64,000 bases of DNA from Lunularia cruciata (Eukaryota; Streptophyta; Marchantiopsida; Lunulariales; Lunulariaceae). A program made the translations under genes and the position numbers. This document shows positions 7,449 through 54,608 of the stretch, piece after piece. The notes below the pieces were generated by a model that did no database searches, was not told the origin of the DNA, and saw nothing but the letters and a program-made list of their open reading frames with translations. The stretch lies in assembly GCA_948567375.1 (NCBI GenBank), contig OX419756.1, positions 46,948,333 through 47,012,332 on the forward strand. Direction: 5' to 3'. How positions within the stretch are numbered: position 1 is the stretch's first letter; each line of letters begins with the position of its first letter.

Positions 7449-7452
7449 TTTT

Positions 7453-24048: not shown

Positions 24049-24441
24049 ATTGATTCATGAAAGCTATTTGAGAGGATGGCATATGGCATGTTTGACTCCT
24101 CTCATGGTGGTTCCTCAAGGATAGTGGTTATGTCCTTGATGTACTTGACCTATAGCTAGTTCACTCTTAGTTCATCTATCTATAATATGTGATACATATT
24201 ATAGATAGATGACTAACTATGGAACTTGATAGCACTTGGCCTCTTGATCTTTGCACACTATAGGGCACATCACATACTCATAATAGATGGTCATCTAGAG
24301 TTAGAGGGACCTAACTGCTAGCTAGAGGTGCAATTGTGGTACTTTAGAGTTTATGTATGACTTTTGTATGAGTTGTTCTTCTATAGTGTGTGATATTGAT
24401 AGCAATGTATGATATGTTGTGATGTATATATGCATAACAAC
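24049..24441 (+). pseudogene. Element K: end of PHD coding region and 3' untranslated part
   Basis: Coding from 1418-1504 continues here with GWHMACLTPLMVVPQG and WLCP-CT, then a stop at about 24154, homologous to the PHD finger of J. Two zinc-site codons or neighbours are mutated to stops. The rest is the 3' untranslated region shared with J, including block B1 (24335-24441), a direct repeat of the last ~105 bp of the following LTR. Confidence 0.7.
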
Positions 24442-25006
24442 TATCAAAAGATTTGCAATACCAAAGTTAGTTTGCTTGGATGTTGGAGTGATAGTCTTGG
24501 TGGTCAAAAGTATAGTAGTAGTTGCTCAAGACTACTTAGCGGTGGCTAGATTTCATATGATGGTTGCTGATTACACTATAGAATCCACCATCACTTGCAC
24601 CATTTGCATTGTCAAATGTGTCATTAGCAACACCATTGTCAAATATGTCATTAGCAACCAAGATCTCCAACACCAGGGTTGGAGATCTTGGTTGAGTAGG
24701 GGGTATACCTTCAAAGTGTAGCTCTAAAGAGCTCACTTCTTTGAGCCTTTGAGCTCTTGGCTATGGTGGGTAAAGGCTTGCAAGTGTTACATGGAGTCTC
24801 TTAGATAGAGTGGATATAGCTTGACTATAATTAGGGCTTGTTGTTGGTAAACCATTGAGTTGAGAAATTTTTTTTAATTTGAGTTGAGTGTGAATTGATT
24901 ATTTTGGTACTGTAGAGTTTATATATGACTTTTGTATGAGTTGTGCTTCTATAGTGTATGATGTTGAAAATGATGTATGTTGTGTAGCAACGTATATATG
25001 GAAAAT
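24442..25006 (+). repeat. 3' LTR of element K (diverged)
   Basis: It aligns with the 551-bp 3' LTR of J (33773-34323, inverted): TATCAAAAG for TGTCACACC at the start and the terminal ~105-bp block at about 24902-25000. The middle portion is rearranged and includes a local inverted repeat (CCAAGATCTCCAAC...GTTGGAGATCTTGG near 24660-24695). The right boundary is approximate. Confidence 0.65.
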
Positions 25007-29687: not shown

Positions 29688-29706
29688 TCAAAACTGCAAC
29701 GACGAA

Positions 29707-32394: not shown

Positions 32395-32402
32395 TATTTA
32401 AG
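32395..32402 (+). promoter_or_regulatory. TATA-like box of LTR D
   Basis: TATTTAAG after TTGCTTCAC, equivalent to 3565 in Element 1. Confidence 0.45.
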
Positions 32403-33768: not shown

Positions 33769-33772
33769 TAGA

Positions 33773-34323
33773 TGTCATGCGTATATACATTGCTACACAA
33801 CATACATTGCTGTCAACATCATACACAATAGAAGGATAACTCACACATAAGTCATACATAGACTCTAAAGTGCCACAATAATCAGATTTTTTACCACTCA
33901 AATCAATCAAACTTAGATCAATACTTGATTTGATCCTCAACAACTTGCCAAAAATAGGGCACTGATTACAATCAAGCCACACACACTCTAGCATAGAGAC
34001 TCCAGGTGACGCTCGCCGGCTTTCTATCCACTCTAGCCAGGAACTCAAAGGCTCAACATCAGAGAAGTGAGCTCTCTAGAGCTACACTCCCAGGGTATAC
34101 CCCTGATTTTGACCTAAGTCTCCTCCCAACGGTCCCACTGACGGCACACCCGACGGTGCAGACGGTGCAAGTGACGGTGGGCCCCACCATGAAGTCAGTA
34201 CCCTAAACCTAAAATCTGACCGTTGGAAAGTAGTCTATGAGTAATGGCCAAAATGCCTCTAACTACTATCACTAGAACTCCAGTGTCCAAGCATCTAGAT
34301 GCAAAACTACAAATGGTGTGACA
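33773..34323 (-). repeat. 3' LTR of J (551 bp)
   Basis: In the element's sense it starts TGTCACACC (34323) and ends CGCATGACA (33773). The last ~105 bp (33777-33878) are a direct repeat of block B1 just upstream of the LTR. The first ~440 bp align with 54164-54608, the 5' LTR. Confidence 0.85.
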
Positions 34324-34434
34324 ACTGTTGTGCGTATTTACATCACTACACAACATACATCGCTGTCAACATCATACACAATAGAAGCACAACTCACACA
34401 TAAGTCATACATAGACTCTAAAGTGCCACAATTG
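34324..34434 (-). repeat. Block B1: copy of the LTR's terminal ~105 bp upstream of J's 3' LTR
   Basis: It is clearly similar to 33777-33878, starting TGTGGCACTTTAGAGTC in the element's sense. A purine-rich stretch (AGGGAGG) precedes B1, while no purine run precedes the LTR start itself. K shows the same block-LTR-block layout. Confidence 0.8.
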
Positions 34435-34602
34435 CCTCCCTAGCTGGCGGTTAGGTCCCTCTAACTCCAGATAGCCATCTACTCCAAGTATATGGTATAC
34501 CCTATAATGGGCAAAGATCAAGAGGCCGGGTGCTATGGAGCCCCATCGTTAGTAGCCTGTCTACAATCTATACCATATAAAGAATGAACTAGCTATAGGT
34601 CA

Positions 34603-34740
34603 AGTACATCTAGGACATAACCATTGTCCTTGAGGAATCACCGTGAGGGGAGGAGTCATACATGCCATATGCCATCCTCTCGAATAGCTATCACACACTA
34701 ACATAGTAGCAGCTCCACCAGAAGAGGCACATAACATACA
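34603..34740 (-). pseudogene. PHD finger at the C-terminus of J pol
   Basis: The 46 residues contain CMLC, VCDSYSRGWHMAC, TPPL and WLCPRC, then a TGA stop at 34600-34602. That is the PHD layout C-x2-C, C-x2-(C), H-x2-C, C-x2-C, with the fourth ligand (CDxC) replaced by Tyr. It follows the integrase C-terminal segment (VLPSGVLVLEGRDG and CATCHLPNID) with no break, as the natural end of pol. PHD fingers read histone H3 tails, so by family knowledge it could target integration or pol to chromatin, a role chromodomains play in chromoviruses. The K copy confirms it is a family feature. Confidence 0.85.
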
Positions 34741-35900
34741 CCTCAAGCTTGCACGTACAAGTGCCAAGCTTGGGTCTATAATACCATCAATGTTTGGGAG
34801 GTGGCATGTCGCACAATTGTGCATATGGTCCTTCCAAAAAACACCATCACGTCCTTCTAACACAAGGACTCCAGATGGCAAAACCTCATGCACTCTCAAG
34901 ATAGTGTGGCCTGTCAAAACATCAAGTGTTGTTGGTGCTATTTGCTATAGATATACATAATCTTGTGGATGAAATCAATGGATCGAGGGTCTATAACCTC
35001 CTCCTCAAATGGTAGCATAGCGTAAAGTATCTCTATGCTGAGCAATCACCACGTTCTCAAAGGCCATTGGCATCACCCTCCAAAAGATCTATGCCCGCTG
35101 AGAACATGCGCTCATCCATACATCGGGGTCATCCAAGTCCAAAACTATAGTAGCATCTCGACAAATGGCTGTAGGTAAATCTGGATCTCGTCCATAGAGT
35201 AGAAAGTATGGAGAGAAGGATACTAAGGAGGCTTTCCGGCTGAACCGATAGCCCATAGCCAACCAAGGTAACTGGAGATCCCAATCTCCCAAGTGGCCTC
35301 TTTGCAAACCATACTTTTGCAATCCTCTCTTCACCGTCTGAACCACTCTCTTTGCTAAGCCATCTGCCTCAGGGTGATCTCAGGAGGTAGTATGGTGATC
35401 AATCAAAGCCTTGTCACACAAGACCTGAAAATCTCCCAAGAACTCTGTACCTTGATCAGTTAAACCTCAGCTGGTGCACCAAAATGACTAAGAACTCAAT
35501 CCATGAACGAGTAATTGTCCCTTCACTAGACTTGTCAAGAAGTGCCACTAACTCAATCCACTTGGAGAAGTGCTCCACCATCACCAAAACATACCGATGA
35601 TGTCTCACAATGAGCGGTAAAGGTCCAGCAAAGTCCAAACTCCAACAAGAACCCAATCCCATGATAGATAATGGGTGTAACTATGGCGTAGGAGCATTGA
35701 ATGATGCTCTAACTCGGTCACAAACCACACATCTGGCAACAAACTGCTGTACCTTGGTCTGCATACCGCGCCAGCAATAATGACTCTCGAGTAAGCTATA
35801 TGTACGCTTTATTCCAAAATGTCCTAGCTCCTCATGAGCATGACAAACCAATTGTGGTCTCTGCGTTGGAAGTGGTACTACTCGCACTCTACCATCCTCC
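34741..35900 (-). pseudogene. J integrase
   Basis: The zinc H2C2 domain is in 35887-35681 (HAHEELGHFG...CVVCDRV). The catalytic core starts WSLDFAGPL (35662-35456), followed by FDQGTEFLG and GLAKRVVQT. The expected Glu of the D,D-35-E triad is Lys here (GAG to AAG). WLAMGYRFSRK, SPYFLLYGRDPDLP and DLDDPD lie in 35346-35089. Beyond the core come IAQHRDTLRYA and the segment leading to the PHD finger. Several stops are present. It would insert the cDNA, and J's 4-bp target duplication reflects its cut spacing. Confidence 0.85.
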
Positions 35901-36302
35901 TATACATGCAAAAGGTGTTTGCCCTCCAATCTAAACCATCCGGCTTGCTGAAGAACACGGTCTCTCTCCTTGGCCCAACTGTGCCACCCACAACACCAAT
36001 GCAAAAATAGTCCATCACTAAGACATCATCATGAACATCTTGCTGAACTGTACCAATATCTTCACTCTCTGGATCTATGACCTCAATAGCTCCTCTTGTA
36101 TGTGTTGTGAGAGATACCACAAAGCCTCTGAAAATATACATAGAAAGTCCAATGCATGCCAACCTGGCACCATCTCCTCAGCTGTCTCACCATGCCAATG
36201 TGCTTTGGTCTGATCCTACTGGTTGGGACATGGGTTTCTACTCAACCCATCTGAATCATGGTTCACCACTCCAGGTCTGTGAACAACCGTGAAATCATAC
36301 TC

Positions 36303-36610
36303 CTATAAAATTAGAGCCCATCGTGCAAGCTTCCCTGAAAGCTTTTCGGACTCCATCAACCACTTCAATGGCCGATGATCAGTGATGAGAGTGAAGGGGT
36401 TACCAAATAGGTAACATAAAAAATGTGCTACTACCCAAACTGCTGCCAAGCACTCTCCCTCATATGAACTATACTTCACCTCCACTGAATTGTTGGAGCA
36501 ACTAGCATAGGCCACCACAAACTCCTTCTCCTCATCATCATGCTAGGTGAGCACCACTCCAAGCTCCAACATACTCCAATCAGTATGAACCTGAAATGGT
36601 CGTCCTTTGA
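36303..36610 (-). pseudogene. J RNase H
   Basis: The open part 36518-36303 has VAYASCSNN, KYSSYEGECLAAVWVVAHF (Glu) and LITDHRPLKWLM (Asp), then KLARWALIL. The first Asp-containing strand lies upstream near 36590 (HTDWSMLELG). It degrades the RNA of the RNA-DNA hybrid. The link to integrase (35900-36300) is coding-like but full of stops. Confidence 0.85.
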
Positions 36611-36759
36611 TCGGTCTCCTCAAAATAGGAGCACATGTCAACCTCTCCTTGAGCTCTAAAAAGCTCTCTCCTTTTCATCTCCCCAACACCACTCTTGTGT
36701 AAGCTTGGTCAGCTTTGTCAAGGCCTTGGCAATGGCACTAAATCCTCTAACATAGCAGC

Positions 36760-37560
36760 AATAGAAGTTCACCAAGGAATGCTTGCACTCTGCTCACATC
36801 CATAGGCTGAGGAATATGTGCAATAGCCTCCACCTTGGTCTACTGAACACCAAGTCCTCCGAGGTAAATAGTGTGACCCAAATACTCAACTTGCTCATGG
36901 AAGAACCTACACTTCCCAAGATTTAATTTGAGTCCATGAGATCTCAACCTCTCAAACACCTCCAACAACTGTCTCTCATGCTCCTCCACAGTGGTGCTAT
37001 AGACCAAAATGTCATCAATATAACACCGAGCAAAATCCAATCCAACTAGGATCCTATCCATGACCCTTTAGAACTCAGCAGGAGCGTTCTTCAACCCAAA
37101 TGGTAAGAACCTCCATTGCTATAACACATCTTTGCCGTGAGGATCAATAGCCTAGAATGATGTCTTGGACTTATCCTCTTCCTTGATTAGCAACTGATGA
37201 TATCCTGCTTGAAGATCCAAAGTACTGAAGACCTTTGCATGCCCAATTGCATCAAAAATCTCCTCCACTGTAGGCATGGCATACCGATCAGCCCTGGTCT
37301 ATCGGTTGATAGGACGGTAATCTCCACACATCTGCCTATCTGTGTAGTTGCCATGCATATCTTTCTTGGTTGGCATCACTGTCGCTGATGCATACTCTCC
37401 ATGTGAAATCTCTACCAAACCAGCCTCAAAAAGGTCACTACTCTGGCTCTGAATCAATGTCCTCTCCATCTCACTATATCGATAAGGACATCAGAAAACT
37501 GGTGTATTGCTAGTCAACTCAATCCGTTTACCAAGTTCCTTTAGAGCACCCAAATCCTTC
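36760..37560 (-). pseudogene. J reverse transcriptase
   Basis: Conserved blocks in order: YSEMERTLIQSQ near 37480, EAGLVEISHGEYASATV, CGDYRPINR, YAMPTVEEIFDAIG, FSTLDLQAGYHQL, FLPFGLKNAPAEF, and the catalytic YIDD at 37022-37011, followed by LNLGKCRFF and YLGHTI (37061-36840 is the longest open part). Stops, mostly TAG, interrupt otherwise continuous coding. Confidence 0.9.
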
Positions 37561-38044
37561 ATAATGAAGGCAAAACAACTTGTGTGACTCCTCAAGAACC
37601 TCCAAACACTCTGTCTTTCCTCTCTAGTAAGCTTGGGTCCAAGATCTGGCTCCCAAGTATCCTCTGTAACTGTAGTAGGAGTGGAAGACGTACTGACTGG
37701 CTGCTACACTGGGCCCTTGGGAGCAATAGTATCATGCTCTTGACCACTAGAGGTCACAACCTCTGTGTGAAAAACTCCATCCACTCTGGCTGCAAGCTCC
37801 ACATGTCCTCTAGCTGCATCCCATGTGGACCAAGGGTGTAATCCAAGTAGCCCACGCTCACCTGGATGGACTCCAAGTAGACTACTCTCCCTAGTAGCTA
37901 CAGGATGTGTCCCAAGAATACCATGCCCACTTGGTCCATTGCCCCCAGCATGTGCTTTAATTGTCTTGATAGGCACAAGGTTCACAAGTGTTTGAGTGGT
38001 GATGCCTATCAAGTGCCTCCTACGTTGCTCTGCCAAGCCAATGC

Positions 38045-38984
38045 TCACAATCCATGTCAAACAGTTTAGGTCCATAGCCTGACCTAACACTTGACGCTTA
38101 GATGCCTCTGACATTACTAGAACAACAATAATACCGGTGCAAAAACCCATTGCTCGCTCTCTCTCATCAGCATTGGGCTCCACCAACTGCTGTAACCGTG
38201 AGTCCCAAACAAGTCCAGGTCCTCCCTCTTGAAAAGCATGTGAGCCTAGGAAACTCATGAGTGTGGGAAATGCGGCTCTGGGCTGTCCAACTAGGTTCAC
38301 CACTACCATATGTGACCTTTCAGCCACTACCACTGTATGAGACTGACGTCCAACATCCAAGATGTCATCCACAAAGATGTGGTCAAGTCACTGAATCCCA
38401 TCATAAGTGCGCTATAGAACCTCTTTGGGTAAGAGGTTTATCCACCAAAGACGAAGATGATGAGCTCGTGATCCCACTCTGGCTGCATCTAACTATACAG
38501 CAAGTCCCATCCAAGAATGGACCTGATGTGTACTCGCCACCACTCTGGTGCTAGAATCACCCATCAAAGGAACATTCTCCAAAAGGTAAGCTGAAGAAAC
38601 GGACTAATGAACTTGGAGATGTTGTAGTATTTGTAACATCTCCCAAAACACACCAGAACAAGGATCCTGAAGATCCAATCCTCCACTAGCACGTGTATGT
38701 CCCTAACATGGCCATCCAGAAATCACCAAGTGAATAGGCCCATGTCTCTCTAGGTCATGTGCCCCCAGTAAGGAAATGTCTGCTGGTAGGGCCTTCTGGT
38801 AACCTCTGACTGCTGACATTGGTAATAACTCTGGATACCGATAGGTCAAGTGTGCCACATGATATAGAGAGACTCGCCTAGCAATCTCATCTCTCTCTAC
38901 ATACAAGTACCTATGTACTCGGATACCCGCCTATAACACCGCAGCTAGTCCGGTGTTGATCCCACCAAACAACTCCAATAGGCA
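38045..38984 (-). pseudogene. Cytosine-5 DNA methyltransferase domain in J pol
   Basis: About 310 codons in one frame, directly downstream of the protease, carry the C5-methyltransferase motifs in order. Motif I is LLELFGGINTG (38981-38949, SAM binding). Motif II is LYVERDE (acidic residue near 38897). Motif IV is LVISGWPC with the catalytic Cys at 38708-38706, followed by TAG exactly where PCQG has Gln. Motif VI is LLENVPLMGD (ENV at 38579-38571). Motif VIII is SRAHHLRLWW (38471-38442). A target-recognition-like stretch has VNLVGQPRAAFPT and GPGLVWD. Motif IX is ERERAMGF (38165-38142) and motif X is QVLGQAMD (38093-38070). Such enzymes methylate cytosine C5 using SAM. Stops at 38931, 38703, 38604, 38493, 38412 (all TAG) and 38388 (TGA) make this copy dead; no frameshift is needed. 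After motif X the frame continues to 37704 as a linker to RT. Confidence 0.9.
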
Positions 38985-39555
38985 TATCCCCTCTATTGGA
39001 TACTGCCAAGCAATGAGTGTGGTATCCAGAGGTGTCAAAGCAATTGCCTCTAGAGGCTCATCCTCACACTCATCTCTTGATGGTACAAAGGCTCCACTCC
39101 AAGCTTGCTGCACCAACTGATCTGCATGCTGCTGCAATGCCTCCTCTGAACTCCACAATGGAACATCCAAGGTGGATGGAACAATCCCACTCGTACTCCA
39201 AAGCCAAGTGATCTCCTTTGGTATTGGAGTATCCTCTACACCACCTAGAGATGTCTGGATCTGAAATGGACACCTCTCCACATTGGTCTTCCGTAACTCC
39301 ACATCGACAACTGCAGCCTTCCCCAACATAAGAGGTTGCGCACCAGAGTCTAACAAGACTCTCTATGGTGTATAGACCTTCCCTGAAGGTCCCACCAAAC
39401 AAATAATCCCCCTCTGGTTATCCAATAGGACAACACCAGGTGTGAACCGTGCTCTCTCAAAGGCCGGTCTAGCTAGCAACTCCTCTAGTCTAGCCGCAGC
39501 TGCTTGCCATAAAGCACTGGTCGCTGAACGGATCCCATGCTCCTCAACCAAGTCA
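38985..39555 (-). pseudogene. J protease region
   Basis: 39581-39363 (LVEEHGIRSATSALW...) leads to the aspartic protease active site LDSGAQPLMLGKAAV (DSG at 39350-39342) in 39356-38931. That frame then runs without a break into the methyltransferase. PLWSSEEALQQHADQLVQQAW is an Ala/Gln-rich linker. Pre-protease coding on the other side of M2 ends in TTRAEVVDSGA, so M2 cut the same reading frame. Confidence 0.75.
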
Positions 39556-39559
39556 GCTC

Positions 39560-40249
39560 TGTGAACCGGCCTGTCTCTCACTCAGCATGAACCTCTAGTG
39601 GCTATTATGGTAGCGCACCATGGACTAAGAAGGCAAGGAACTCCAACTCCATCATGCTCTTCCAAGGCTAACACTCCAAGACTCAAGACATTGCTAACTA
39701 GAGAACTCAACGAGAGAGATAGTTGCAAATGAAAGGATAATGAATACCTCCTCACCCCTTGTTTATATACTTGTGAAATAGTTACGTACCAAAGTTACTT
39801 ATTACCGTAGTAACTCAAGTTACTAGACTAAAAGTCAAGTAAAGTCAAAAAGTAGAAAGGAATATCCATTCACATGGGCATATTCCCCTAAGCATGTGGT
39901 CTTATCTTGACCCAACCACTAAGTCAAGGATTCCTTCACATGGGCTATCCTTGGACTAAAGAAGAATCCAAAACAAAAAGGTTTGCGGGCCCAAGAGTTC
40001 TCAACTCTTTCCTCAAAGCCAAACACCTAGGAATAATACCAAGTCAACACACTAAAATCCAAAATAGTGGTGCTCATCTTGTCTACTTCCTCTAAAGTAA
40101 GGTCCTCTCTATCTTAGCTATGACTAACTTTAGCTAACCATGACTAATATAGAACCATCCTTTATCTCTATATAAATAATATTTCTTAAGTACTTGTAAT
40201 ACCAAGCTAAATATCACAATACCACACACATGCACAAATGGGTGTTACA
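39560..40249 (-). repeat. 3' LTR of M2
   Basis: Reads TGTAACACCC...TTCACA in the element's sense, 690 bp. It is preceded in the element by the polypurine run CCGGGGGTAAA. Confidence 0.92.
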
Positions 40250-40297
40250 TTTACCCCCGGACTAAGTTCTCACTTTGTCCTCAAAGTGAAGGCCTCT

Positions 40298-43200
40298 CTA
40301 CCTTCTATGGTACATCTTCATCTTATCATGGTTAATCCTATCAAAGTGTCTTCCTCCCAACTCCTTGAGATCATAGGTGTAATTGCTCCACACCTTCTCT
40401 ACTATGAAAGGTCCAAAGTACTTAGGCAAAAACTTCTTTTGCACTCTCTTGAATCAAATGGAATCAAACAACATTACCTAATCACCTTCTTTGAAAGGCT
40501 CCACCTTCTTCTTGCCTTGCCTCTTGTCATAGCTCTCCTTTTGTTTCCTTTGGGCTTGCTCCACTCAAACCATAGCAACTGCTCTTGCCTCTTCCAACTC
40601 CATGAGTTGATCCTTCCTTGACTTCTCATCACCTCCTTGTGCTTTCTTCAATCTCCTATGAATGCTTTGGAAGGTAGGAAGATCAAAGTGAATAGGTAAG
40701 GTAGACTCAATACCATACACCAATTGAAATGGAGAAAATCCGGTGGAAGTCTTCATGGTTGTCCTATACTCCCACAAAACTGCATGAATCCTCTTGTCCC
40801 AATGATGTTTAGCCCCCTCCATTTCTGCAGCTTTGGCCAACATCATGCACAAGGTCTGATTGGTTCTCTCTGCCAAGCCATTGGAATTTGGCTTATAGGA
40901 TGTTGTTACTCTATGTGTGATAGAGAAATGTCAGAGCATGGCTGTAGTAATGCTTCTTGTAAACTCTCCTCCTCAGTCAGAAACTAACTCCAAAGGGCAT
41001 CCAAACCTAGTGATAATGCGTTCATAAAGAAATCTACCCACTTCATCTTCATTCTTGTCCCTCAATGGTCTAGCCTCAACCCACTTGGTAAGGTAATCAA
41101 TAACTACCACAATGTACCGATTGTTCCTTGGGGTTCTATTGAGAGGACCTACAAAATCAATTCCCCACTTCTCAAAAGGTCATAGCAATGGAATTGATCG
41201 AAGTGGTGGAGTGGATGTAGAATTTCTAGCAAAAGCTTGACAAACATGATAAGTTTTGCAATAATCAAGACAATCTTTGAAAATCCCTCTCCAATGGTAA
41301 CCTGCATCTAGAATCTTGAAAGCAGTCACCTTTCCTGCAAAGTGTCCTCCACATACTAAACCTTCATGAAACTCCTTTATGAGTAGGATAGACTCTTCCT
41401 TACCCACTGCTCTTCGAAGTAGACCATCTGCTCCTTGGTGAAAAAGAATATCCTCCACCATTGTGTAAGGTCTAGATCTTGCTGCAAGGGCCTTCCTCTC
41501 CCTAGCATGCATCCCTTTTGGGTAGTTACCTCTTGTCACAAAGTCCACAATCTCCTTGTACTCCATTGGAATGTCTTGAGCGACTGAGATTGTCATGAGC
41601 TCCTCATCTGGGAAGGAATCATCCACAAGCTCATCTCCATCATGATCATAGGCTCTAGATAACAAATCAGCATTTGCATGTTTCTTTCCTGGCCTATCCT
41701 CAATGGTGTAGTCATACTCAAACAAGAGTATCATCCACCTTGCTAGTCTCCCTTCAACATTAGGCTTGTTGAAGATGTACTTCATAGCCTTTTGATCCGT
41801 GACAATGGTGGCTTTCCCTCCAATCAAGTAGTATCTAAACTTCTTGAGACCAAAGATCACTGCCAACCCTTCTCTCTCCGTGATAGAGTAGTTCTTCTCT
41901 GCTGAAACCATCTGCCTACTAGCATAAGCTATTGGATGATCATGCCCATCTTGGTCTAATTGACTAAGATTGCATCCTATAGCTACATTAGAAGCATCAA
42001 TGTAGAGGATGAAAGGCTTACTCCAATCAGGTTTAGCAAGAATTGGAGCTACCACAAGGGATTGCTTGAGCTCCTCAAAAGCTTTGAGAGAATCCTTGTC
42101 CTCCAAAATCACCATGTATTCTACACCCTTCTTCATGTAGATGGTCAATGCATAAGCCTTGTTGGAAAATGAGAAGATGAACCTCCTATAGTATCCAACC
42201 ATCCCCAAGAATTGGCGTAACTTTGTCAAGCTTGAAGGGAAGGTCTGAGATTTTCCTCACCTTCTCAAGATCAACTGCTATTCCATCCTTGGAGATGATG
42301 TGTCCCAAAAGTAGACCTTCTTCACATCCAAAAATGCACTTCTTTGGGTTGAGTGATGCATTTGCCTCATCCAAGCATTGCAAGACTTTGATTAGGTGCT
42401 CAAAGTGCTCCTCCTTGCTCCCATAGACACAAAAGTCATCAATGAAGTCTCTCACAAATTTCCCAATGAAAGGTTCAAATACCTTGTTCATGAACCGTTG
42501 GAATGTGGCTGGAGCATTGCAAAGCCCAAAAGGCATGACCTTGAAAGCGTAAGTTCCCCAAGGTGTGGTGAATGTGGTGAGTTGTTGATGCTTTGGTGCA
42601 ATCTTGATTTTGTTATATCCACTATAACCATCTCTAAAACTGTACCTCTCATGACCTGCAACCTCCTCCAAGATCTCATCAATGAATGGCAATGGGTAGT
42701 AGTCCTTCTTGGTAACAACATTGAGCTTCTTGTAATCCACACATACCCAAAGCTTGCCATTCTTTTTCTTCACAATGACAATTGGAGACACCCATTCTGA
42801 ATTCTCCACCTCAAAGATAAATCCAGCCTCCTTGAGCTTATCAATCTCCTCCTTCACAACCAAAGATATTGGTGCGCTAATGCGACGTTGCTTTTGGCGG
42901 ATTGGTCTTGCATGTGACTCCACCTCTATCTTGTGCTCCTCCAAGGTGACTTCCTTCAAATCCTTGTAACTAAAAGCAAACACATGGATGAACTTGCGGA
43001 AAATCTCCTCAAATCTCACATTCTCCTCCTTGGTAACATTTGGGCCATACTTGAGGGTAGCTAACCTTCTCTCTACCTCCTCAAGTGTCAATGGTGATTT
43101 GTCTGGGTCCTTCAAAACCTCTAGCTTAGGTGCAAAATCCATAGCACACAAGGGATACACATCTGAATCAGATTTAGATTCATCCTCCTTCGTGGAAGTC

Positions 43201-45114
43201 TCTTCCTCCATGCTTGTGTCCACACCTGAAGCTCCTTCTTTAGAATCCGATTCCCAATAATCAGAAGATGGTGTATCTGAATGTGAAGTGTTGGTGGTGT
43301 TAGTCACATGAACTGTGACTCTATGGCTTGATGGCCCAATCCTCAAGTACCCTTTGTGTCATTGATCAGTTGTGCGTGCTACTCTCAACCATGGCCTCCC
43401 AAGAAGTAAGTCATAGCTTGAATCCTTCAAGACTTGGAAAGTCATGAGATTTTGAACTCCCATAACTGAACTACCACTTTATCCATCACCCCTACTGGTC
43501 GAACTTGTTGCTTGTTTGCCATGCTCACCACAAATGTTGAAGGTCTTGAGGGTATCATACCCAACTTCATCATCAACCTTTCTGACATGGCATTTACTGC
43601 TGATCCTCCATCAACCAATGCATCCTTGATGTTGTGACCATTCACTCTCACATCAATCTTGGAGGCATATTCACAAGCCTCCCATGGTGCTGGCTTGGCA
43701 TCTACCACCCCCACTGATATTGGAACTTTTGCCTTCTTCTTCCTCTTGGTCCTTGTAGAACTCAAACCACCTCTAAGCTCCTTTCTCAAGGTAGGGTTCA
43801 AAGCAATCAATTGGCCCACTGTGATGTTAGCCTTGTGACTACCAACATCCTCCAACACATTGTAGTTCCATTGTTGCTTTGAAATCAAGAAATCCTCCAT
43901 CCCCAACTTCTTCCTTGGAGTCTTTGTTGTTGATGGTGTTGAGGTGCAAGTGCTCCTAGTAGACATAGGAGTATCCTTGCTTGAAGGAAATCCTTGAGAA
44001 GAGTGAACATCCTTTACAAAATGAGCTCGCTTCTTCTCTTGTGCCAAAAGCTCCAAATTAAGACCCTTGGAGTTTGAGCACTCTCCCTTCTCATACTTGC
44101 TCTCAAGCACATCTGTGGATGCTATCCCCTTATGTTTGTTGGGATTAGGAGCCACTTGGGTTTCACTACCTCCCTCTTTCTCTCTATTGGCTCCCTCATA
44201 ACCCCTTCCTCCATGGTAAGTGGAATTTGGGCAATTCCTTTGGATATGGCCTCTTCCTCCACAACCAAAATAATTTCTATCATTGAAATTGTTGGCTGGT
44301 TGGCCTCCTCTATATGGAAAGTTTCCATAACTCCTAGGCCCTCTCCCGACATTCTGATCCACCTCTCTCTTCTCCCATAATTGCACCACATTGATCTTGA
44401 GATCCGCAAGTTGTTCTGTGCTGGTTTGGGGTGGATCTTTTGGTGGAGGTGCAAGAACTAGAGCAACCACTACTTGTGGTGCAACCCTTGCCACCAAAGT
44501 ATCAGAAGTTCCACCATACTTGTAGCCTTGAGGAGGATGCACAACCTCCTTCACCACTAAATCACTCTCATCCCCTTCCAAACTCTCCTCTATACGAATT
44601 GCGATCTTGATAGCTTCAACCTTGGAAGAAGGTTTCTCATATCTCACCTTGCTTCTAATTTGTGGTCTCAACCCTCCCACAAAATTCTTGGTGAGCATGG
44701 CCCCTATGCCAATCATTGTAGTCTCCACATCATCCCCACCCTTCCTCAACACTAAGCAAAATCTGGACTCCAACTTTTCCACTCTTTCCACATAGACTCT
44801 CACTTTCTCTCCTTCTCCTTGCTTGAGAAATGTAACCTCACACATCAATCTCTCATAACTCTCATCAGGAAGAAAGTTCTCAATGAGTGCTGAAGTCAAA
44901 GTCTCCCAAGACTCCTCTTCCCCATCTCTCCTCTCTCTCTTTTGGTATTCTGACTCATACCATGTAAGTGCTACATCCTGAAAGAAATTTGTAATAATGA
45001 GGTCCACTCATTCTTCCTCCTCTCATTGTTTCCCATGCAAGCTCTCTTGAAGTCTCTCACAAAGGCTTCCACATCTTCTCCATCCTTGCCAAAGAAAACC
45101 GAAAGTTTCCCCAT
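40298..45114 (-). pseudogene. M2 gag-pol
   Basis: The ATG at 45114 matches M1's start (MGKLxVFFGKDGEDVEAF). A frameshift after RRKNEW precedes the long open piece 45007-43442, which spans gag, the zinc knuckle (first Cys replaced by Tyr, YFGCGGRGH) and protease (VDGGSAVNAM). A small deletion near 43470 shifts the frame. 43346-42186 covers RT with FIDDFCVYG and an intact KKCIFG where M1 has the stop. A shift near 42230 follows, then 42229-41180 (RNase H and integrase start, with CKTYHVC, one ligand mutated) and 40987-40565 (integrase core and C-terminus). It is useful as an outgroup for reading M1's two nonsense changes. Confidence 0.9.
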
Positions 45115-45350
45115 CTTAACCTCTCACTATCTTTCTCTTCTCTCAATTTTTCTTTTTCTCTTTTCTTTTCTCTCACTCTATAACTAATAGAGTATATACA
45201 TGACTAACACCATTTGAGAGTAATCCACCCTAGGGAACACAAAAGGTTCAGGTTGCTCCAAGATTTCTATAGCAACATCAAATCCTAGAGTGCATATTAA
45301 TCAAACTCTCATGGATAGTTTATCCATAAGTTGAAAGATTATCTCCATCA

Positions 45351-45823
45351 CTAATCTTGAGAACTAGCTGATGAAGGTGGTAGTATTTCTGTAGCTGTAC
45401 TAAGACTCTCTCCAAGATCTTTCACCAAAGTCTCCAAAAGTGCTTTTACTCCACTACACTCATATCCTTTTGGAAGTCCTTCCACTCCACAAACCTCACA
45501 CAACTCCTTGGTCTTAGATCTTCTCCCTCCCAATCTTGGTGAAGAAGGTCCAACATGCAAACCCAAGTCAAGTAAGCCTCTCTTTCCCTCAATCTCTTGC
45601 TCTCAAAGGTCAATGGACATGAACTTGCCTTATGTCCCTTCTCTCCACACAGAAAGCACTTAGACTCACTCTTTCCTCCAAGTGGTGTAGGTTTCTGGAT
45701 CCTCTCAACACTCTCTTCAAATTCTATTGTAAACTCTCTTTTCCTCAAATCCACCCCTACAACCACCTCAAGCCCTTGGGGAACCTTGCATAATCTCAAT
45801 TTCCACTCTTGATGACCCTCCAT
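45351..45823 (-). pseudogene. M2 accessory zinc-knuckle ORF
   Basis: 45823-45446 encodes MEGHQEWKLRLCKVP... with an intact CFLCGEKGHKASSC knuckle. A 1-nt loss near 45585 moves the second half (CEVCGVEGLPKG...) to another frame (45566-45351). Together with M1's copy this shows the ORF's ancestral form had both Cys/His clusters. Confidence 0.6.
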
Positions 45824-46470
45824 GTTCCCAAAATGAATCTAAACACTCAAACATGCTTTTTGTTGATCTCAAACTCCTCATGCATGAGATCTCCACTCTG
45901 CAGAATTGACCCTTCCTCACAATGTCACTCTAATCTCCCAACCAATATGTCACAGTCCTCTGAAATTTGACACACTTAATCACAACTCTAGTGCGTTCAT
46001 CCTTGCAAAATTTCAGATCTTTTCATTGATCCATTTGGCTTAGAAATCTTTCTATTCAGCACACAAATTTCAGATTTGGTCTGAAAACCACCCCCCTCAC
46101 TTCAAAAACTCATAACGCCCTGTGAAAAAACGATCCCTCTCTAATTTTTGTGGCAGCAGGTAGGATACAACGCACTTAATTTTCTTGGAAATTTTCAGGA
46201 CAATTCACTGAAAATTGAAGAAATGGGAGACTCTGTACAATTTTCCAGAGAGCATGCAGTTGCGGGAGCACTTTATCCTATCAACTTTCAAAAATTCTAG
46301 CCCAGTGCGCATAGTAGCTCTGGTAATAATTTTAAGTGTGCTAACTGTAAGATAACCCAAGCTATCATGTGTAGAAATTTCAAGTTCAGATCTAAAACTT
46401 GAGATTTTGCCCAAAATCACATTAATCCCCAAAATCTGCACTCCACCTCTCACAATCTCTCCAATTCTTC

Positions 46471-46644
46471 TCATGTGTACAAGATGTACAAAATCACCTC
46501 AAAGACATCATAATGAACTACAGGGTTTACAAATAGATCTTGGTTCTCTAACATAAGTTCAGCCCTCTCCTCTCCTAAGGTTCTCTCCAAGTGAGCTCTC
46601 ATAGCCTCCTTTTGCCTAATGTAGAATTGAACGCGGAACATTAT
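46471..46644 (-). CDS. Small leader ORF of M2, unknown
   Basis: It is a 57-codon counterpart of 7490-7660 in M1, nearly identical in protein sequence, located after the primer site. No domain is recognised. Confidence 0.3.
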   Translation of the reverse strand: MMFRVQFYIRQKEAMRAHLERTLGEERAELMLENQDLFVNPVVHYDVFEVILYILYT

Positions 46645-46661
46645 CTTGCCTTCTAGAGAGG

Positions 46662-46678
46662 TCCTGACAACAGAACTA
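46662..46678 (-). other. M2 primer-binding site, decayed
   Basis: It reads TAGTTCTGTTGTCAGGA where M1 has TGGTTCCGTTGCCGGGA. All four differences are C to T or G to A transitions. Confidence 0.7.
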
Positions 46679-46682
46679 AAAA

Positions 46683-47372
46683 TGTGAGCTGAACTGTCTC
46701 TCACTCAGGATGAACCTCTAGTGGGTATTATGGTAGCGCACCATGGACTAAGAAGGCAAGGAACCCCAACTCCATCATACTCTTCCAAGGCTAACACTCC
46801 AAGACTCAAGACATTGCTCACTAGAGAACTCAATGAGAGAGATAGTTGCAAATGAAAGGATAATGAATACCTCCTCACCCCTTGTTTATATACTTGTGAA
46901 ATAGTTACGTACCAAAGTTACTAATTACCGTAGTAACTCAAGTTACTAGACTAAAAGTCAAGTAAAGTCAAAAAGTAGAAAGGAATATCCATTCACATGG
47001 GCATATTCCCCTAAGCATGTGGTCTTATCTTGACCCAACCACTAAGTCAAGGATTCCTTCACATGGGCTATCCTTGGACTAAAGAAGAATCCAAAACAAA
47101 AAGGTTTGCGGGCCCAAGAGTTCTCAACTCTTTCCTCAAAGCCAAACACCTAGGAATAATACCAAGTCAACACACTAAAATCCAAAATAGTGGTGCTCAT
47201 CTTTTCTACTTCCTCTAAAGTAAGGTCCCCTCTATCTTAGCTATAACTAACTTTAGCTAACCATGACTAATATAGAACCATCCTTTATCTCTATATAAAT
47301 AATATCGCTTAAGTACTTGTAATACCAAGCTAAATATCACAATACCACACACACGCACAAATGGGTGTTACA
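46683..47372 (-). repeat. 5' LTR of M2
   Basis: It is 690 bp, the partner of 39560-40249. It begins TGTAACACCC at 47372 and abuts the J sequence GCTCC. Confidence 0.92.
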
Positions 47373-49430
47373 GCTCCACTATCAACCACCTCTGCCCTAG
47401 TAGTAGGAACTGCATCATCCCTACTCTCACAAAGTGTGGTAGCCAACTTGAACATTGGGGCTTGGTCAACTCCCAATGTAAACATGTCACTGGCCAAAAA
47501 CAAAGGACGCCGCATAATCAACTGAGCCGCCTCGAACATCATGCTAGACTCAGTTTGTGGAGTAGCAGGTTGTTGACTAACAAGTAGTCCATCATGTTCT
47601 CCATCACCATGTACCACACTTGCACTAGGACATCTAGGAACCATGGATGTTATCTACAATGCCTCAAATAGCGTGAAAGATTGGGGAAGTCTGACCTGTC
47701 TCCCAACCTCTCCTCTTTGTGGTACCAACTCCATTGATGCTCCTCTAGGCTCTGAAGCACGTACTACGCTCCTAGTCACTGCTATACATGCATCCACCTG
47801 TGCTGCTCTATACATGAAATCCAAAGCATCTCTATCACCAGCATATGAGGTGGAAGCCCCAGCACCCAAATCTGATCGCCTCTGAGCAATAGCCATACTA
47901 GCTAATCTTTGCTCCAACTGCTCAATCCGTGTAGCCATAGTTGTGTCAGAAGTAAGGGCAAGTACTGCATCCCTACTAGGTGTAGATCCTCTACCACCAC
48001 CTTGTCCTCCATGAACTGGAGCTCCTCTACTACCTACCATAACAACCCTACCACTCCGTAACTCTGGGTGTAGGTCAAAACACCGGTCACAAGTGTGACC
48101 AAATCTATGGCAATGCTCACACTGCCTTTGTGCTTGTTGTGATGCACCAGAGGTATCAGGTCTGCTGCCCTGAGTACACTCTCTCCTATGGTGAGGTCCA
48201 CCACAAGTCTAACAAGCAACACTACCACTCACTAGCTGCTGCTAACCCGCAAATGAAGGTAAGGGTCTAACTCCACTAGGCCCTCCACTCGCTCCATAGG
48301 ATCTGGGCTGTCCACCCTGTCCTCAAAAACCAATTGGGCATGGTGCACTCTTCTGCACTCTAGAAGAAGTCACAACCGTGGATGAGGTCTCCCTACCAAA
48401 TCCAGATGTCACCACTCTCTCCTCCACCATGTTGAGCTCAATACGCTCAGCCAAACCAAAGACCATTGCCAAAGTAGGTGAAGTAGCCTGTAACAATGTA
48501 GCATCACAAACTCTACGTCAAAACTCTTTGTCCAGTATCCCATACCAAAACTGAACTGCCTGGGCCTCAATAACTCCTTAAGTGAAACTGATCAGCCGCC
48601 TCATGTGAGTGTATGCCTTGCATAGGCTCTCTCCAGCCTTCCGCTGGAATTCTTGCTAGCTCCTCAACTTGTCAATCCGTACTCCCTGGTAGTTCTGCCT
48701 CAAACATAGGAAAAAATCCACCATGGGGTTAAACCCCAATACCACACCACCTCCTACAGAGGTACCTCCACTCGTGGTAACACTATCTCCACCTAGTGCA
48801 CCTCCACTAGCTCCACCAACACTACTTGAGCTAGAACTCATAGGTACAGTTGATCTACTCCTAGCCATCAAGCCTAAAGTGATAGAGACATAGTTTGGAG
48901 ACCAATACTGTCTCCATAACTCAATCTCCTCCAAATGAGCTCTCCTGAACTCATGGTAGTCGTCCTTCATCTAACCCTCCAAGTGCTGAAACAACCTCTT
49001 CTATGCCATGAAAGGTGTGAACAAAGTTGGGTTCTACATCTACTGCAAATCACACCAACTATCAAACTCCTGGATGAAGTCATCCAACTCAATGGTACCC
49101 ATTGTACTAGAGTAACGCCTAGGGCCTTTGGAGGCCCCATAAATCTCATCCATGTCCCATAACAACGGTGCGGACACAACAAGTGCACTCTCAACTAGAT
49201 CAGCTCTTGTATCAAACTCCAACTTAGAGTCAATCTCCTCCCTCACTGGGACCTGAGACACAGGCTGATATCGAGTGCCACTCCAAGTAAACCCACTGCG
49301 TACTGCAAGGCTAACTCCTCTGGAATCCCCAAAGAACTCCGTCGTGACCAAGTAACCACACAACAAACCAAAACCACCAACTGCAACCGCAAGTACCCCA
49401 TCAAGTGCCAACACCACCAAGTGCAAACAC
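47373..49430 (-). pseudogene. J gag with double zinc finger, and pre-protease linker
   Basis: Open pieces are 49426-49040 (ends in MGTIELDDFIQEFDSWCDL), 48970-48656 (LEEIELWRQYW, a Ser/Gly-rich loop, then MVDFFLCLRQNYQGVRIDKLRS) and 48040-47654 (EQLEQRLASMAIAQRR coiled coil). Around 48205-48070 a different frame reads a knuckle with C-TCGGPHHRREC, then CEHCHRFGHTCDRC, a second Cys/His cluster. A TAG again falls inside the first knuckle. The 47644-47330 piece leads into the protease cut by M2. Confidence 0.7.
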
Positions 49431-49540
49431 TAACCAAGCACCACCAAGTGCCAACACCAACCGAGCACCACCAAGTGCCAATACCAACCAAGCACCATCA
49501 AGTGCCAATACCAACCGAGCACCACCAAGTGCCAAAACTA
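49415..49540. repeat. 27-bp minisatellite in J 5' region
   Basis: Four to five units of the type ACCAAGCACCACCAAGTGCC plus AACACCA, period 27 bp. Because 27 is a multiple of 3, both strands stay open and give 9-residue repeats (APPSANTNQ on plus, VGTWWCSVG on minus). Confidence 0.85.
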
Positions 49541-50252
49541 GCAGAACACTATCCACTAATGTAATTGTAACTAAGACAACTATACTAGGGGCAAGGGCGA
49601 CCTGTAACCTGCCATCACCACATGCATTCTCACGGTCTGTAGGTCATCACTTCCTACCTCACCAGAGAGAAACAAAGATAGTCTGATTGGTCATCACTCC
49701 AGCCTCACTATTGAGAGCACACCAGAGCACCAACGCTCAAAATTTAGGGCACCTCACACAAACATGGTGCACAAACAGGAAGCAAAGAATGGATGGGGTC
49801 CAATCACAAGAATGCTAAACAACAACCCTCCATCTCATAAATCAACACAAGTTTGACTCTGCCACCATTTTGCATTTGACATAATTGGAGTACCTATCTA
49901 TTTCCTGAGCTACGAGGATCATCAAGGATCAGTTCAAGTTCTTTTTGCCAAATTTGACATACCCTCTTCACAAAATCTGACGTAAAATCTAATGTAAATC
50001 TGATGTAAAATCTGACATAAATCCCTAAAAATGGCTGACCACTAAATCCTCACCTAACTCTTCACTTGAGCCAAATTGGAAAAATCAGTTTCATACAATC
50101 TTCAATTCGTGAGAATCTGCTCCCAACTCCACCTTCAATTTTAGTTTCTGAGCTCAACTCATGACAAATTGGTACTGAGCTCAAAATCATAGCTATTGCT
50201 TGAAAATTGCTTCTCCCTTGGCTCCAAATTTTGCAAGTGCTTCCACACACAC
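49541..50252 (-). other. J leader (5' untranslated region), non-coding
   Basis: It is AT-rich with short repeated GATTTTACATCAGATT-like phrases near 49970-50030. I see no ORF of note and no primer site. E inserted at its distal end. Confidence 0.5.
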
Positions 50253-51052
50253 TATGACAACCCGGCAAATATCACTTTTGCGGTAATCGGGTAAGTAAAG
50301 TTCATTCCCGCAGAGATACAAGTCAGAAATGTCTAAATACAAAGCAAACAGTAACAATGTAGTTCTTCTTGGTTGCGTCTTTAATCTCTCAGGTAGAAAC
50401 CACACCCAGAAGAGAGTAACAAGCACTGACTCGCAGTCTTGTCACAAATTCACACTCCTTAATCACAACTCCAACAAATCTTTCCAAACAATCTTGATTG
50501 TGATGATTCAGGCTCTCCCAAAAACAACACTTCACTGCAAAACGACTTCACCTCAGAATTGTGTTCCACCCCTCCACTGAAGGCACAACTTCCTTGATCA
50601 AAATTGCTTCACATCAACTTCGCACTGCACTCACAAATGCAGAATACTACCAACACTACAATTCCTCTCAGATCTGTCAAGGCATTGCTTCGATTGCACT
50701 TCACTCAGGATCAAACACACAGAATGAAGATCAAGGCTATGGAATCCAACATCCAACAAACACACTGACTTGCACTTTGAATTTCTCCACACACTCACAA
50801 ACATAGACACAAAGTTGATACTCGGAATCAAGCTCAAGCAACGAGCACTGCTTCACAACACTTTGCTTTATCTATTCTCATAAATTATGAGCATTGAACA
50901 ACATTTGACTGCAAATGACACTCTTAAATAGTGAATCAATTGACAATTCTAACAACTATACCGTTCTACAACAACTTTTCTAACCTGGAAATCTGAAATG
51001 ACAATGCACCTCTTCATATCTACCTCTTCAGATCTCAAAACTATTACTAATC

Positions 51053-53630
51053 CTATCCGATTTCTACTTTGTCATTGGCTTTCAAACCCAAACCCAAAGT
51101 GACTTTACTTCCCACTATTTTGTCCTTGGGTTTCATATCTTCTACTTCTTCTACCAAATCTAACAGTTCTCTTTCCTGATCTAAAATTGCACTAGTGGGT
51201 AATCTATCTAACTCTTCATCTCTTGACCCACTCTTCTCAAATGTCTCCATTGGTTACTCCAAAGACATTTGCACTCCTATGTTATCTACTTTGGGTTTAG
51301 CTCTAACATCTTTCCGAAGCTTTTCTATCTCTATTTTCACTCAGTCTAATCTAATCAAAATGTTATCCTCTACCTCTAAGATCTTTCTGTCTACAAAAGT
51401 TCTAAGACTGATTAACAAGGCATTCAAATCTTTATCCTTTGCTTGTCTTTGCCTCGTCTCCTGCACCAACAATTTCAACTTGTGCAGCCTCGTCTCTTCA
51501 ATCCAAATGCTGGCCTCTATACTTAACATTGCGTTCATCCTGAGGACAATCTCCTTCAATGGCTCCAATCTCATCTTCCTTTCACGTTCTCAATCTGCAA
51601 GCCAATCCTCTTGGTACATTGCCAACTCCGCCTCAAACTTGGCTTTCACTGTCTCCTTCTCCTTCTCCTTCTATACAACTCTCTCCTCCTGATTACGAAG
51701 TAACTCTCGTAATCTTTCTTCTTCTCTATATCGGGCTGCCAACTCTCGTTGCCAGAGTTGTTTCTTCTCCTTGACACTCTCCATCACCCTATCAAGCTCT
51801 TGATCCTTTGCAACTACTCTTGCCATAGCATGGATAACCTCTACTCTTGAATCAACAAACTGCTGCTTCAAGATCTCATACTCAGCTACTTGTTTCTCCC
51901 TTGCTATGTCACTCTTCTTCACAAGATCCTCTCGATAATTCACTTCTCTCTTCAGGTCTTCAATTACCTAACTTCTCACTACTGCCTCTGCTCGCAGTAC
52001 TTCTCTTTCCTCCTCACCTTGGGTTATACTCTTCTTCAACTCCGAGTTTTCTTCTTCCAACCTTGCTAATACCTGCAACACAGTCTTCACCTCTAGACAA
52101 GTTGACTGCATCTCCTTCTTCCTGTACTCTAGCTTTACTAACAAGGGGCACACCACTTCTCGCAAGTACTCCACTCCATCACTGGCAACTACTTCAACCT
52201 GTGGAGTGATCTCCTTCTTTACCTCTTCTTCTCTTGATACTCGCCTTCTTCGCTTCAATCGTCATATCAGAATAGACGCCTCACTTCCCAAGCTTTTAGG
52301 TGCTTCTTCCTTCACCGTACTTGGACCCGCTTCATACTTTGCCTTACGTCTCAAGCAAACTCCTCTATGTACTGCGATCTTCTTCTCTTCAGCCATAGTT
52401 ACTTTGTCTTCCAACTGTGTGTTGTCCTTGGCTTCAATTTCTGCCTACACTTCTTCTTCTTCGTATTCTTCTTCTGTAGCCATTGGCACTGATGTCATTT
52501 CTCCTCCTTCATCGCTATTGCTACTCGTATCTCCACTCTGTAGCGTTAGCTCAGGCTCCTCCTTGTGTTCCGAGTCTTCAGTCTTAAGCTCGGCATCACC
52601 TTCCGAGTCTTCATCCTCTGACTTGATCACCACCATACCTCGCCTTGAGTTGCCTCTCCGTGTCTTCCAAGGTTTCTTTGTGTCTTCGGCTTTGCCCTGC
52701 CAACTTCTCTTCTTCATATTCGGGGTACTCACTATGACCGCCATGTTCTTCCCTATCTTTGTGTAGTAGTCGTCGGTGCTCCTGATTTGCAAGATGTATT
52801 GTTGCTCCTCGACATTGACCTCCTTTTGCAAATCAAGATGGAAGTGCGACACCATCCGAGTTTGCTCCGCCAAGTTCAGCAAATTTAGCCCAAGGTAGAA
52901 ATGTGCTGCAAATGGGAAGATGTAGTGTGGAGGCGATTTATCCCGCAAATTCCACACCATCTGCCTCGTTCTCTCGTGGAAACACCTTGCCCAATTGTGG
53001 ATCTCCTGCAAATAACTTGTGAAAGAACACCACTTGGTGTTTCATCACATATGTGGTTCTCTCCGGCTTCAGGATGGCCATCAGTGCACTCATAATTCCT
53101 CTCTTCACAGGGTCTTTGTAGCTCTCAACTTTGTACCCATTCTTCGTCCGCTTTGATGAGAATGCATCTCTCACTTCTTGGGTTTCTTGAGCTATCTTTC
53201 CTTTCCCCAAGAACGTGGCCCCTTGCTCTGAGCCTGCTTCCTTCCCAAGTACAAGTCTCTAATCCGACTCTATCCAGCGAGCCAGATTTCCTCTCTTCCC
53301 TTCCTCCTCGGGTCCATCAAGACACTTGCTCTTGATGATTTTTGTCATGAAACCTGGAAAGCTCACATTCCAATTCCATGCCAAGAAAGTGATCCAAAGT
53401 CGGCTCAAGACTTTGATCCTAGCAATCACATCTAACCTCCGAATTGCATGATTTCTCACTGCAAATTCAAAGTTCTTCTTTCCTCCTCCCATCTCTTTTG
53501 CCTTCTCACTATCTCTTGATTTCACTCTCGCAACTTCTCCCTTACGCACTAACGCAATTCCAACTCTATTTCCCTTCCCACAATCACCTGCAAGACGACT
53601 TCTCAATGGCGAAGGAAAATTACTTGACAT
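51053..53630 (-). pseudogene. LTR-internal coiled-coil gene, copy E
   Basis: Starts MSSNFPSPLRSRLAGD at 53630 and is open through 53259 (FPGFMTKIIKSKCLDGPEEE, RWIESD), with a stop right after. Further open pieces are 53210-52938, 53011-52445, 52258-51968, 51943-51671, 51574-51341 and 51250-51053. The order and content match D throughout, so D and E together define the full-length protein of roughly 850 residues. Frameshifts and stops are at different sites from those in D. Confidence 0.75.
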
Positions 53631-53649
53631 TTTGTCATTGCGAGTTTGA

Positions 53650-53657
53650 TTTTTATA
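53650..53657 (-). promoter_or_regulatory. TATA-like box upstream of LTR ORF (E)
   Basis: TATAAAAA lies 20 bases from the ATG at 53630, conserved with D. Confidence 0.35.
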
Positions 53658-54163
53658 GAGTTGCGCTTCTTCATCTTTCTTCACTTTGAGTTTCTACCGA
53701 GAAATCACACCTCCTGCATGCACATGTCACTGTCAATCAATCTTTGCGTGTATGGGCCGCCAGTTTTTGAAAGGTCCCTTCTTGAATTTCTTGCCCCGAG
53801 GAAAGGTTGTTAGACTATCTTCGCCTCGGGTTGAGCTCCCCCCAATAAAAAGACAATTTACTTTGGGTTGTATGCTGATTGGGCATTTCCGAGTACTTTA
53901 CCTTATGACCCAAAGTCAAGTTACTTTGGGTTTCATCCCGAAGACTCTTTTCTTCACCTTCTTCGGCCATACAAGCGCAATCAGACTTCTCTATACACTT
54001 CTTCCTCTTTATTTTGAAAAAAAGAAAAAATGTGTGCACCACACACACACTCTCTCAGGGAAATCTGAACTACTTGATCGAGACACCACGATCCACCAAG
54101 CTTGGAGATACCACCAACACTCGTAGTTCTTGCACCCAATTTCCCTTGACTCTCTTCTTTGTG

Positions 54164-54608
54164 TAATTAGATTGTTTACCACTTGAATCAATCAAACTCA
54201 GATCAATACTTGATCTGATCCTCAACAACTTGCCAACAATAGGGCACTGATTACAGTCAAGCCACACCCACTCTAGCATAGAGATTCCAGGTGGCGCTCA
54301 CCGGCTTTTTGTCCACTCTAGCTAGGAACTCAAAGGCTCAACATTAGAGAAGTGAGCTCTCTAGAGCTGCACTCCCAGGGTATACCCCTAATTTCGACCT
54401 AGGTCTCCTCCCAACGGTCTCGTTAACGGCACACCTGACGGTGCAGACGGTGCAAGTGACGGTGGGCCCCACCATGAAGTCAATACCCTAAACCTAAAAT
54501 CTGACCATCGGAAAGTAGTCTATGAGTAATGGCCAAAATGCCTCTAACTACTATCACTAGAACTCCAATGTCCAAGCATCTAGATGCAAAACTACAAATG
54601 GCGTGACA
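54164..54608 (-). repeat. 5' LTR of J, truncated
   Basis: It aligns with the first ~440 bp of the 3' LTR. It lacks the terminal ~105-bp block. Past 54164 the sequence changes to unrelated leader, so a deletion probably removed the LTR end and the primer site. Confidence 0.8.

Follow-up and report, generated by a model that had tools for sequence, protein, structure and literature searches.

A decayed Ty3/gypsy-type retroelement with a predicted DNMT3-type methyltransferase domain in Lunularia cruciata

The closest described system is KnitGypsy-Dnmt3 of the alga Klebsormidium nitens, in which, according to the sections consulted of de Mendoza et al. 2018 (PMC5890265), a DNMT3 domain lies inside Gypsy elements whose repeats are built as in DIRS elements (Fig. 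4 legend). In the same source, the elements of Symbiodinium are arranged as A-coding region-B-A-B (Fig. 1 legend), and expression in yeast led to CG methylation by their DIRS-borne domains; for the domain of KnitGypsy-Dnmt3 no activity was seen in yeast, which its authors do not count as decisive since DNMT3B failed there too. Another paper (PMC12344493, in the parts consulted) mentions streptophyte and dinoflagellate elements with DNMT3, of the LTR Copia and DIRS kinds. The 2018 paper, with its DNMT3 domains in Klebsormidium Gypsy elements, is the report to which an earlier note on the present DNA had referred. Among the papers listed in the literature searches, some of whose lists were capped (for example at 20 of 1,475), none was recognisable from its title and the start of its abstract as reporting such elements in land plants.

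The window, i.e. the whole stretch of 64,000 nucleotides of Lunularia cruciata DNA that was analysed, carries an element, J, which is almost certainly a decayed Ty3/gypsy-type retroelement with a cytosine-5 methyltransferase (MTase) of the DNMT3 type (Table 1). J is a single element on the minus strand (tblastn of 44 relatives against the window) with the domain order gag, protease (PR), MTase, stop codon, reverse transcriptase (RT), RNase H (RH), integrase (INT) and PHD finger. It has the PR-RT-RH-INT order and the DDE integrase of Ty3/gypsy elements; in place of two matching LTRs, one per end, repeat A1 stands alone at the 5′ end and B1-A2-B2 at the 3′ end. As in KnitGypsy-Dnmt3, so far as the consulted sections of PMC5890265 describe it, a Gypsy-type pol and an unrearranged DNMT3 domain in the coding region are combined with DIRS-like repeats: the DNMT3 domain of J is in frame in a Gypsy polyprotein, apart from the stops of decay and one stop shared with a related sequence, L017, and the repeats run A-coding-B-A-B. 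Unlike its counterpart in the Klebsormidium alga, J resides in a land plant. In both J and L017, the MTase shares the upstream side of a leaky-type stop with gag and protease, and the integrase is followed by a PHD finger; the word PHD is absent from the main text of PMC5890265. SymbioDIRS-Dnmt3 of Symbiodinium is, by the same source, also a retroelement with DNMT3 and A-coding-B-A-B repeats, but it has a tyrosine recombinase where J and its relatives have a DDE integrase. Neither L017 nor any of 10 relatives examined with Pfam showed a tyrosine recombinase; among the 10, P0007 had no match of any kind.

Table 1. Features of J and of the related fragment J2 (window positions)
Feature	Positions	Strand	Remarks and basis
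Whole element J, with two other repeats inside	33773..54608	-	Starts TGTCAC at 54608, ends GCATGACA at 33773; repeats and flanks
Putative 4-bp target-site duplication TCTA, 5′ side	54609..54612	.	By eye; four matching bases by themselves are weak evidence
Terminal repeat A1, 5′ end, 445 bp	54164..54608	-	93.3% identical to A2 over 445 bp
Copy of another repeat family in the J leader	50255..54044	.	84% identical to 29293-33070, inverted
gag	47373..49153, some matches to 49399	-	tblastn, P0005 residues 1-565, 49%
Younger Ty3/gypsy nested between gag and protease	39560..47372	-	LTRs 39560-40249 and 46683-47372, 97.5% identical
Aspartic protease, N-terminal part with DSGA; C-terminal part deleted	39231..39559	-	tblastn, P0001 60-149, P0005 579-677
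DNMT3-type MTase domain (predicted), 6 in-frame stops	38010..38996	-	Motifs, homology, profile search
TAG then CAGCCA, between MTase and RT	37704..37706	-	Position matches the L017 ORF1 stop (TAG CAATCA)
RT and RNase H, MTase frame, with stops	36174..37655	-	tblastn, P0010 696-1139, 60%; tree
Integrase with zinc finger and DDE core, interrupted by frame changes (one near 35500)	34603..35959	-	tblastn, P0044, P0035 (71%), P0037
PHD-finger remnant after integrase; one pattern cysteine apparently lost	34606..34740	-	Translation; Pfam PHD in relatives
Purine-rich stretch just before B1, possible polypurine tract	34435..34445	-	L017 has TAGGGGGGG at the matching place
Repeat B1	34326..34432	-	94.1% identical to B2 over 102 bp
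Repeat A2	33879..34323	-	B1/A2 joint ACA-GT-TGTCAC
Repeat B2, 3′ end of element	33773..33879	-	B1/B2 comparison
Putative 4-bp target-site duplication TCTA, 3′ side	33769..33772	.	By eye
J2, second, more diverged 3′ fragment	24058..24998	+	PHD remnant, B1 24333-24434, A2-like stretch, B2 24901-24998

The gypsy nested in J is flanked by GAGC at 39556–39559 and 47373–47376. The gag and protease of J were once adjacent, because P0005 aligns with its residues 1–565 before the nested gypsy and with residues 579–677 after it. Relative to P0005, about 115 residues of the protease (the C-terminal part and linker) are missing near 39239–39231. The earlier note had correctly placed the protease in the MTase frame and had overlooked its truncation, the splitting of the element by the younger gypsy and the position of gag on the far side. 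With six stops in the MTase and a broken protease, this copy of J is dead and can neither make the enzyme nor modify its own DNA, as the earlier note had suggested a self-encoded writer could. Pfam gave no match on the RT piece 37755–36823 or on both flanking stretches, and the window contains no tRNA found by a tRNA search and no Rfam family at gathering scores.

Other repeats lie around and within J. Members of one family with open frames lie at 29293–33070, 50255–54044, 21360–24046, 1504–4242 and 162–1417; the frames 29997–31679 and 31676–32278 have no Pfam match at E 0.01. A Ty3/gypsy element of the same family as the one nested in J occupies 6770–14571, with GTAC at its flanks and short repeats around it (about 5584–6769 and 14572–15058); it is young, since its LTRs are 99.7% identical. 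A neighbouring gypsy of the window had one match at E ≤ 1e-50 among the 8000 candidates scored, a Marchantia protein that aligns to 69% of the query at 68% identity. Together with the organism labels of the MTase homologues given below, this points to a liverwort or another bryophyte as the host.

The MTase domain (38996–38010) has 6 stops in 329 codons, compared to a mean of 18.1 in 2000 base shuffles, of which one was as low. Seven motifs (LELFGGINTG, VERDE, GWPC, LLENVP, SRAHHLRLWW, ERERAMGF and QVLGQAMD) occur in the order claimed by the earlier note, in the minus frame 39356–37704, and motifs I, IV, VI, VIII, IX and X are in unrearranged order. As it had also claimed, this is the frame of the DSG protease motif upstream. 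Downstream, the frame extends into the RT. The check that the earlier note proposed, a search with a C5-methylase profile, gave 12.2 bits and E 0.12 with Pfam PF00145, under the cut-off of 22, and on this result alone the claim would have failed. The window row is probably the exception among 11 aligned family members, the other 10 of which reach E ≤ 0.001 with this profile. In a homology search for which the stops were replaced by X, 8000 candidates were scored and at least 44 proteins matched with E ≤ 0.01, the best of them with E 1.7e-150 and 65% identity; of the 44, 21 are labelled Marchantia polymorpha, one Calypogeia fissa, two Sphagnum and one Monoraphidium, while 19 carry no organism. 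These labels support the land-plant range that the earlier note had raised. Each of the three protein searches scored the 8000 candidates with the most shared words, and their counts are lower bounds.

The type of METHYLTRANSFERASE was assessed by a profile search of PDB sequences, the profile comprising 11 domains with the X-masked window row included. DNMT3A came first among 57 matched sequences (E 6.2e-25), followed by DNMT3C and DNMT3B, then by DRM with a partial match, and then by HaeIII, DNMT2 and HhaI. The DRM2 match (E 2.2e-10) covers a partial stretch, and the DRM structures 4onj and 4onq matched with E 2.3e-12 and 2e-11; nothing named DNMT1 or CMT was among the 57. The closest solved relatives are therefore DNMT3A/B, not DNMT1, CMT, DRM or DNMT2, and by this sequence comparison the MTase of J is of the DNMT3 type. 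Plant DRM/DNMT3 genes have the DNMT3 superfamily in common with J, but DRM is rearranged and matches only in part; cellular plant DNMT3 was found neither among the matches listed nor in the trees described below. The same ranking bears on whether the enzyme modifies RNA, for example the genomic RNA of the element or its tRNA primer. RNA has been raised as the substrate of a LINE-borne enzyme (PMC5890265, in the parts consulted), but the match to DNMT3A is better than that to DNMT2, a tRNA methylase (E 1.4e-7), and we regard an RNA substrate as improbable. With respect to the earlier note, the C5-methyltransferase in a gypsy element stands; it had not recognised that the enzyme is of the DNMT3 type, that the direct repeats are split, that there is a PHD finger or that a stop codon separates MTase from RT.

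The catalytic residues are well preserved in the family. Of 93 relatives, 90 retain the catalytic Cys (two have a gap and one a Tyr), and all 93 have the ENV Glu as well as the second Arg of motif VIII; the rows were picked by similarity, so that some of this conservation is built in. The pattern suggests long purifying selection on the enzyme. DNMT3L has lost its catalytic motifs, and the MTase domain of these elements could in a similar way be structural or a decoy with no need for catalysis. Variation in the members with the MTase between RNase H and integrase (45 rows) would fit such a role: CA often takes the place of xT in their motif I, and Glu replaces the Pro before the catalytic Cys in 14 of the 45, compared to 7 of the 48 others. 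The near-complete retention of the catalytic Cys and of the ENV Glu speaks against it, and we consider a non-catalytic domain rather unlikely.

In the relatives, the MTase occupies one of two places, either between protease and RT, as in J, or between RNase H and integrase. Placements were mapped with home-made profiles on 118 proteins, and with Pfam on 10 of them; the placement rule left 6 of 117 mapped proteins unassigned, and P0117 is probably misfiled in the MTase-before-RT group. A second search, started from P0031, found at least 83 proteins (8000 candidates scored), counting the query and an apparently bacterial MTase (P0118). Two of these are labelled Closterium, two Marchantia and one Haematococcus, and the others have no organism. 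No match in either this or the first homology search, with 8000 candidates scored in each, was labelled Klebsormidium. Of 61 relatives with an integrase, 50 have a PHD finger after it; by the home-made profile, these comprise 11 of the 17 with the MTase before RT and 39 of the 44 with the MTase after RNase H. A scan of IMG/VR with the MTase gave 16 loci, all distant MTases of 24–43% identity, and one with pol gave 71 stretches, none related. A GTDB scan gave 19 loci, 18 of which are matches of 31–45% identity in bacterial records, the other being L017.

Members with the MTase after RNase H group as a single branch both in the MTase tree, where they make up 45 of the 100 rows (SH-aLRT 99; rows cover at least 280 profile positions), and in the RT-RH tree, where they are 40 of the 61 (support 98). 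Those with the MTase before RT are not a single branch in either tree. In the MTase tree, J belongs to a supported set of 15 rows that includes Marchantia and Calypogeia; in the RT-RH tree, it lies next to two Marchantia rows. Both trees are quick ones and their agreement was judged by main groups, which are the same in the two; the enzyme has therefore probably long travelled with this element lineage. The rows come from searches with element MTases and include one cellular DNMT3 (DNMT3A), so the trees neither date nor count the capture. That relatives occur in green algae as well as in liverworts and peat moss suggests that the enzyme has long been part of the element and is not a chance neighbour. 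The window contains just one MTase stretch of this family (tblastn), as would be expected if a host DNMT gene or retrocopy had recently fallen by chance into a single gypsy copy. Such an accident is next to impossible, given the same architecture in Marchantia, Sphagnum, Closterium and unlabelled assemblies and the main groups common to both trees. The earlier note was right that the MTase belongs to the element: there are relatives with gag-PR-MTase-RT-RH-INT. The best overall explanation of J, and one that we hold to be fairly probable, is a DNMT3-type MTase taken in long ago and kept as a part of the polyprotein.

J has split direct repeats at its ends in place of ordinary LTRs. The complete arrangement A-coding-B-A-B is seen in J alone; J2, which is 70% identical to 34693–33782 and has B copies that are about 85% identical, keeps the B-A-B 3′ end. 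This order is equivalent to LTR-coding-LTR with an LTR made of B+A, rotated by one B. J begins with TGTCAC and ends with ATGACA, i.e. it has TG...CA termini, with TCTA on both sides (by eye). No same-orientation repeats of 60 bp or longer were found within 34000–44000, because the partners lie further out, and no tRNA-type primer-binding site is obvious by eye after A1 (54163–54045). L017 has a comparable B-A joint, ACA-GC-TGTCAC (alignment score 61 vs a maximum of 43 in 300 shuffles); it is a circular contig with collapsed repeats, which gives no proof of the A-coding-B-A-B order. We hold the split-repeat structure with high confidence. The two large insertions in J, and the fact that the 5′ part is seen in J only, would also fit a typical LTR element, its LTR being either B+A or just A, that was rearranged later and has its present repeat order by accident. 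This is very unlikely, because A1 starts and stops where A2 does, J2 has the same B-A-B 3′ end at 70% identity, TCTA flanks the TG...CA ends and the KnitGypsy legend gives the same kind of structure (PMC5890265, in the parts consulted). The integrase would cut at the internal B|A joint, and a circular or rotated DNA form would be opened there and not at an LTR edge.

The stop codon between MTase and RT is shared by J and L017 (CADCWO010000201.1, 9285 bases), which is filed under a cyanobacterial MAG and whose first and last 127 bases are identical, as in a circular assembly. L017 is a eukaryotic-type element, probably present as eukaryotic contamination of that MAG. It has an open frame of gag-PR-MTase, one TAG in frame and then an open frame of RT-RH-INT-PHD, where the protease is below the Pfam cut-off and gag is assigned by similarity to proteins such as P0048. 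The stop reads TAG CAATCA in L017 and TAG CAGCCA in J, both of which fit UAG-CARYYA, the readthrough context of the tobamovirus type. This context is found at 5 of 1991 TAGs in the window (both strands, J's included) and at 2 of 190 in L017. Of the MTase-before-RT proteins that lack RT, 28 of 30 end 18–171 residues past the MTase, in a count that leaves out 9 proteins cut within the MTase. Readthrough is not universal, since another 23 MTase-before-RT proteins carry MTase and RT in one chain; a part of these chains may be gene models that bridge the stop. Taken together, the sequences make readthrough of the UAG-CARYYA stop likely, and the MTase of J-like elements is probably made with gag.

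This position of the enzyme suggests how it might be used. Gag, protease and MTase would be produced together at the level of structural proteins, and occasional readthrough at UAG-CARYYA would extend them with RT-RH-INT-PHD. The MTase would be packaged in the particle and would methylate the new double-stranded cDNA before or at integration, such that the copy enters the genome already marked like host DNA, and the PHD finger on the integrase would help to choose the chromatin for landing. That self-methylation of cDNA is the main role is conceivable, with a likelihood somewhat below even. Alternatively, the MTase could act on host chromatin or DNA, either marking the landing site or raising host methylation, so that the element is tolerated. 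A DNMT3-type domain together with a PHD finger on the integrase would suit this, and insertion-site effects were also discussed by the 2018 authors (PMC5890265, in the parts consulted), but the MTase of J and L017 has gag and protease as its neighbours, a position that speaks for the particle, and we regard action on the host as a less likely, minority reading.

Observed/expected CpG is 0.26–0.30 in J, depending on the part, 0.26 in the whole window and 0.14 in the nested gypsy; CpG is no more depleted in J than in the window, and J thus shows no special trace of methylation. In chromoviruses, the Gypsy elements with a chromodomain, a chromatin-reader module follows the integrase. J resembles them in having a chromatin reader at this place, but the reader is a PHD finger and not a chromodomain, and there is an MTase in addition. 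Returning to self-methylation of cDNA, we suggest only tentatively that an ancient lineage common to bryophytes and green algae consists of split-repeat, integrase-bearing elements with a DNMT3 writer, made with gag, and a PHD reader, in which the writer would methylate the element's own cDNA in the particle and the reader would choose chromatin.

The J copy itself is a fossil, and it is evidence for a large, old and little-noticed lineage that reaches the bryophytes. The combination of split-repeat ends with a DDE integrase raises the question of how such elements complete their DNA and integrate. The matches from Marchantia, Calypogeia and Sphagnum place these elements in bryophytes, including the model Marchantia polymorpha, in which the role of an element-borne de novo methylase is genetically testable.
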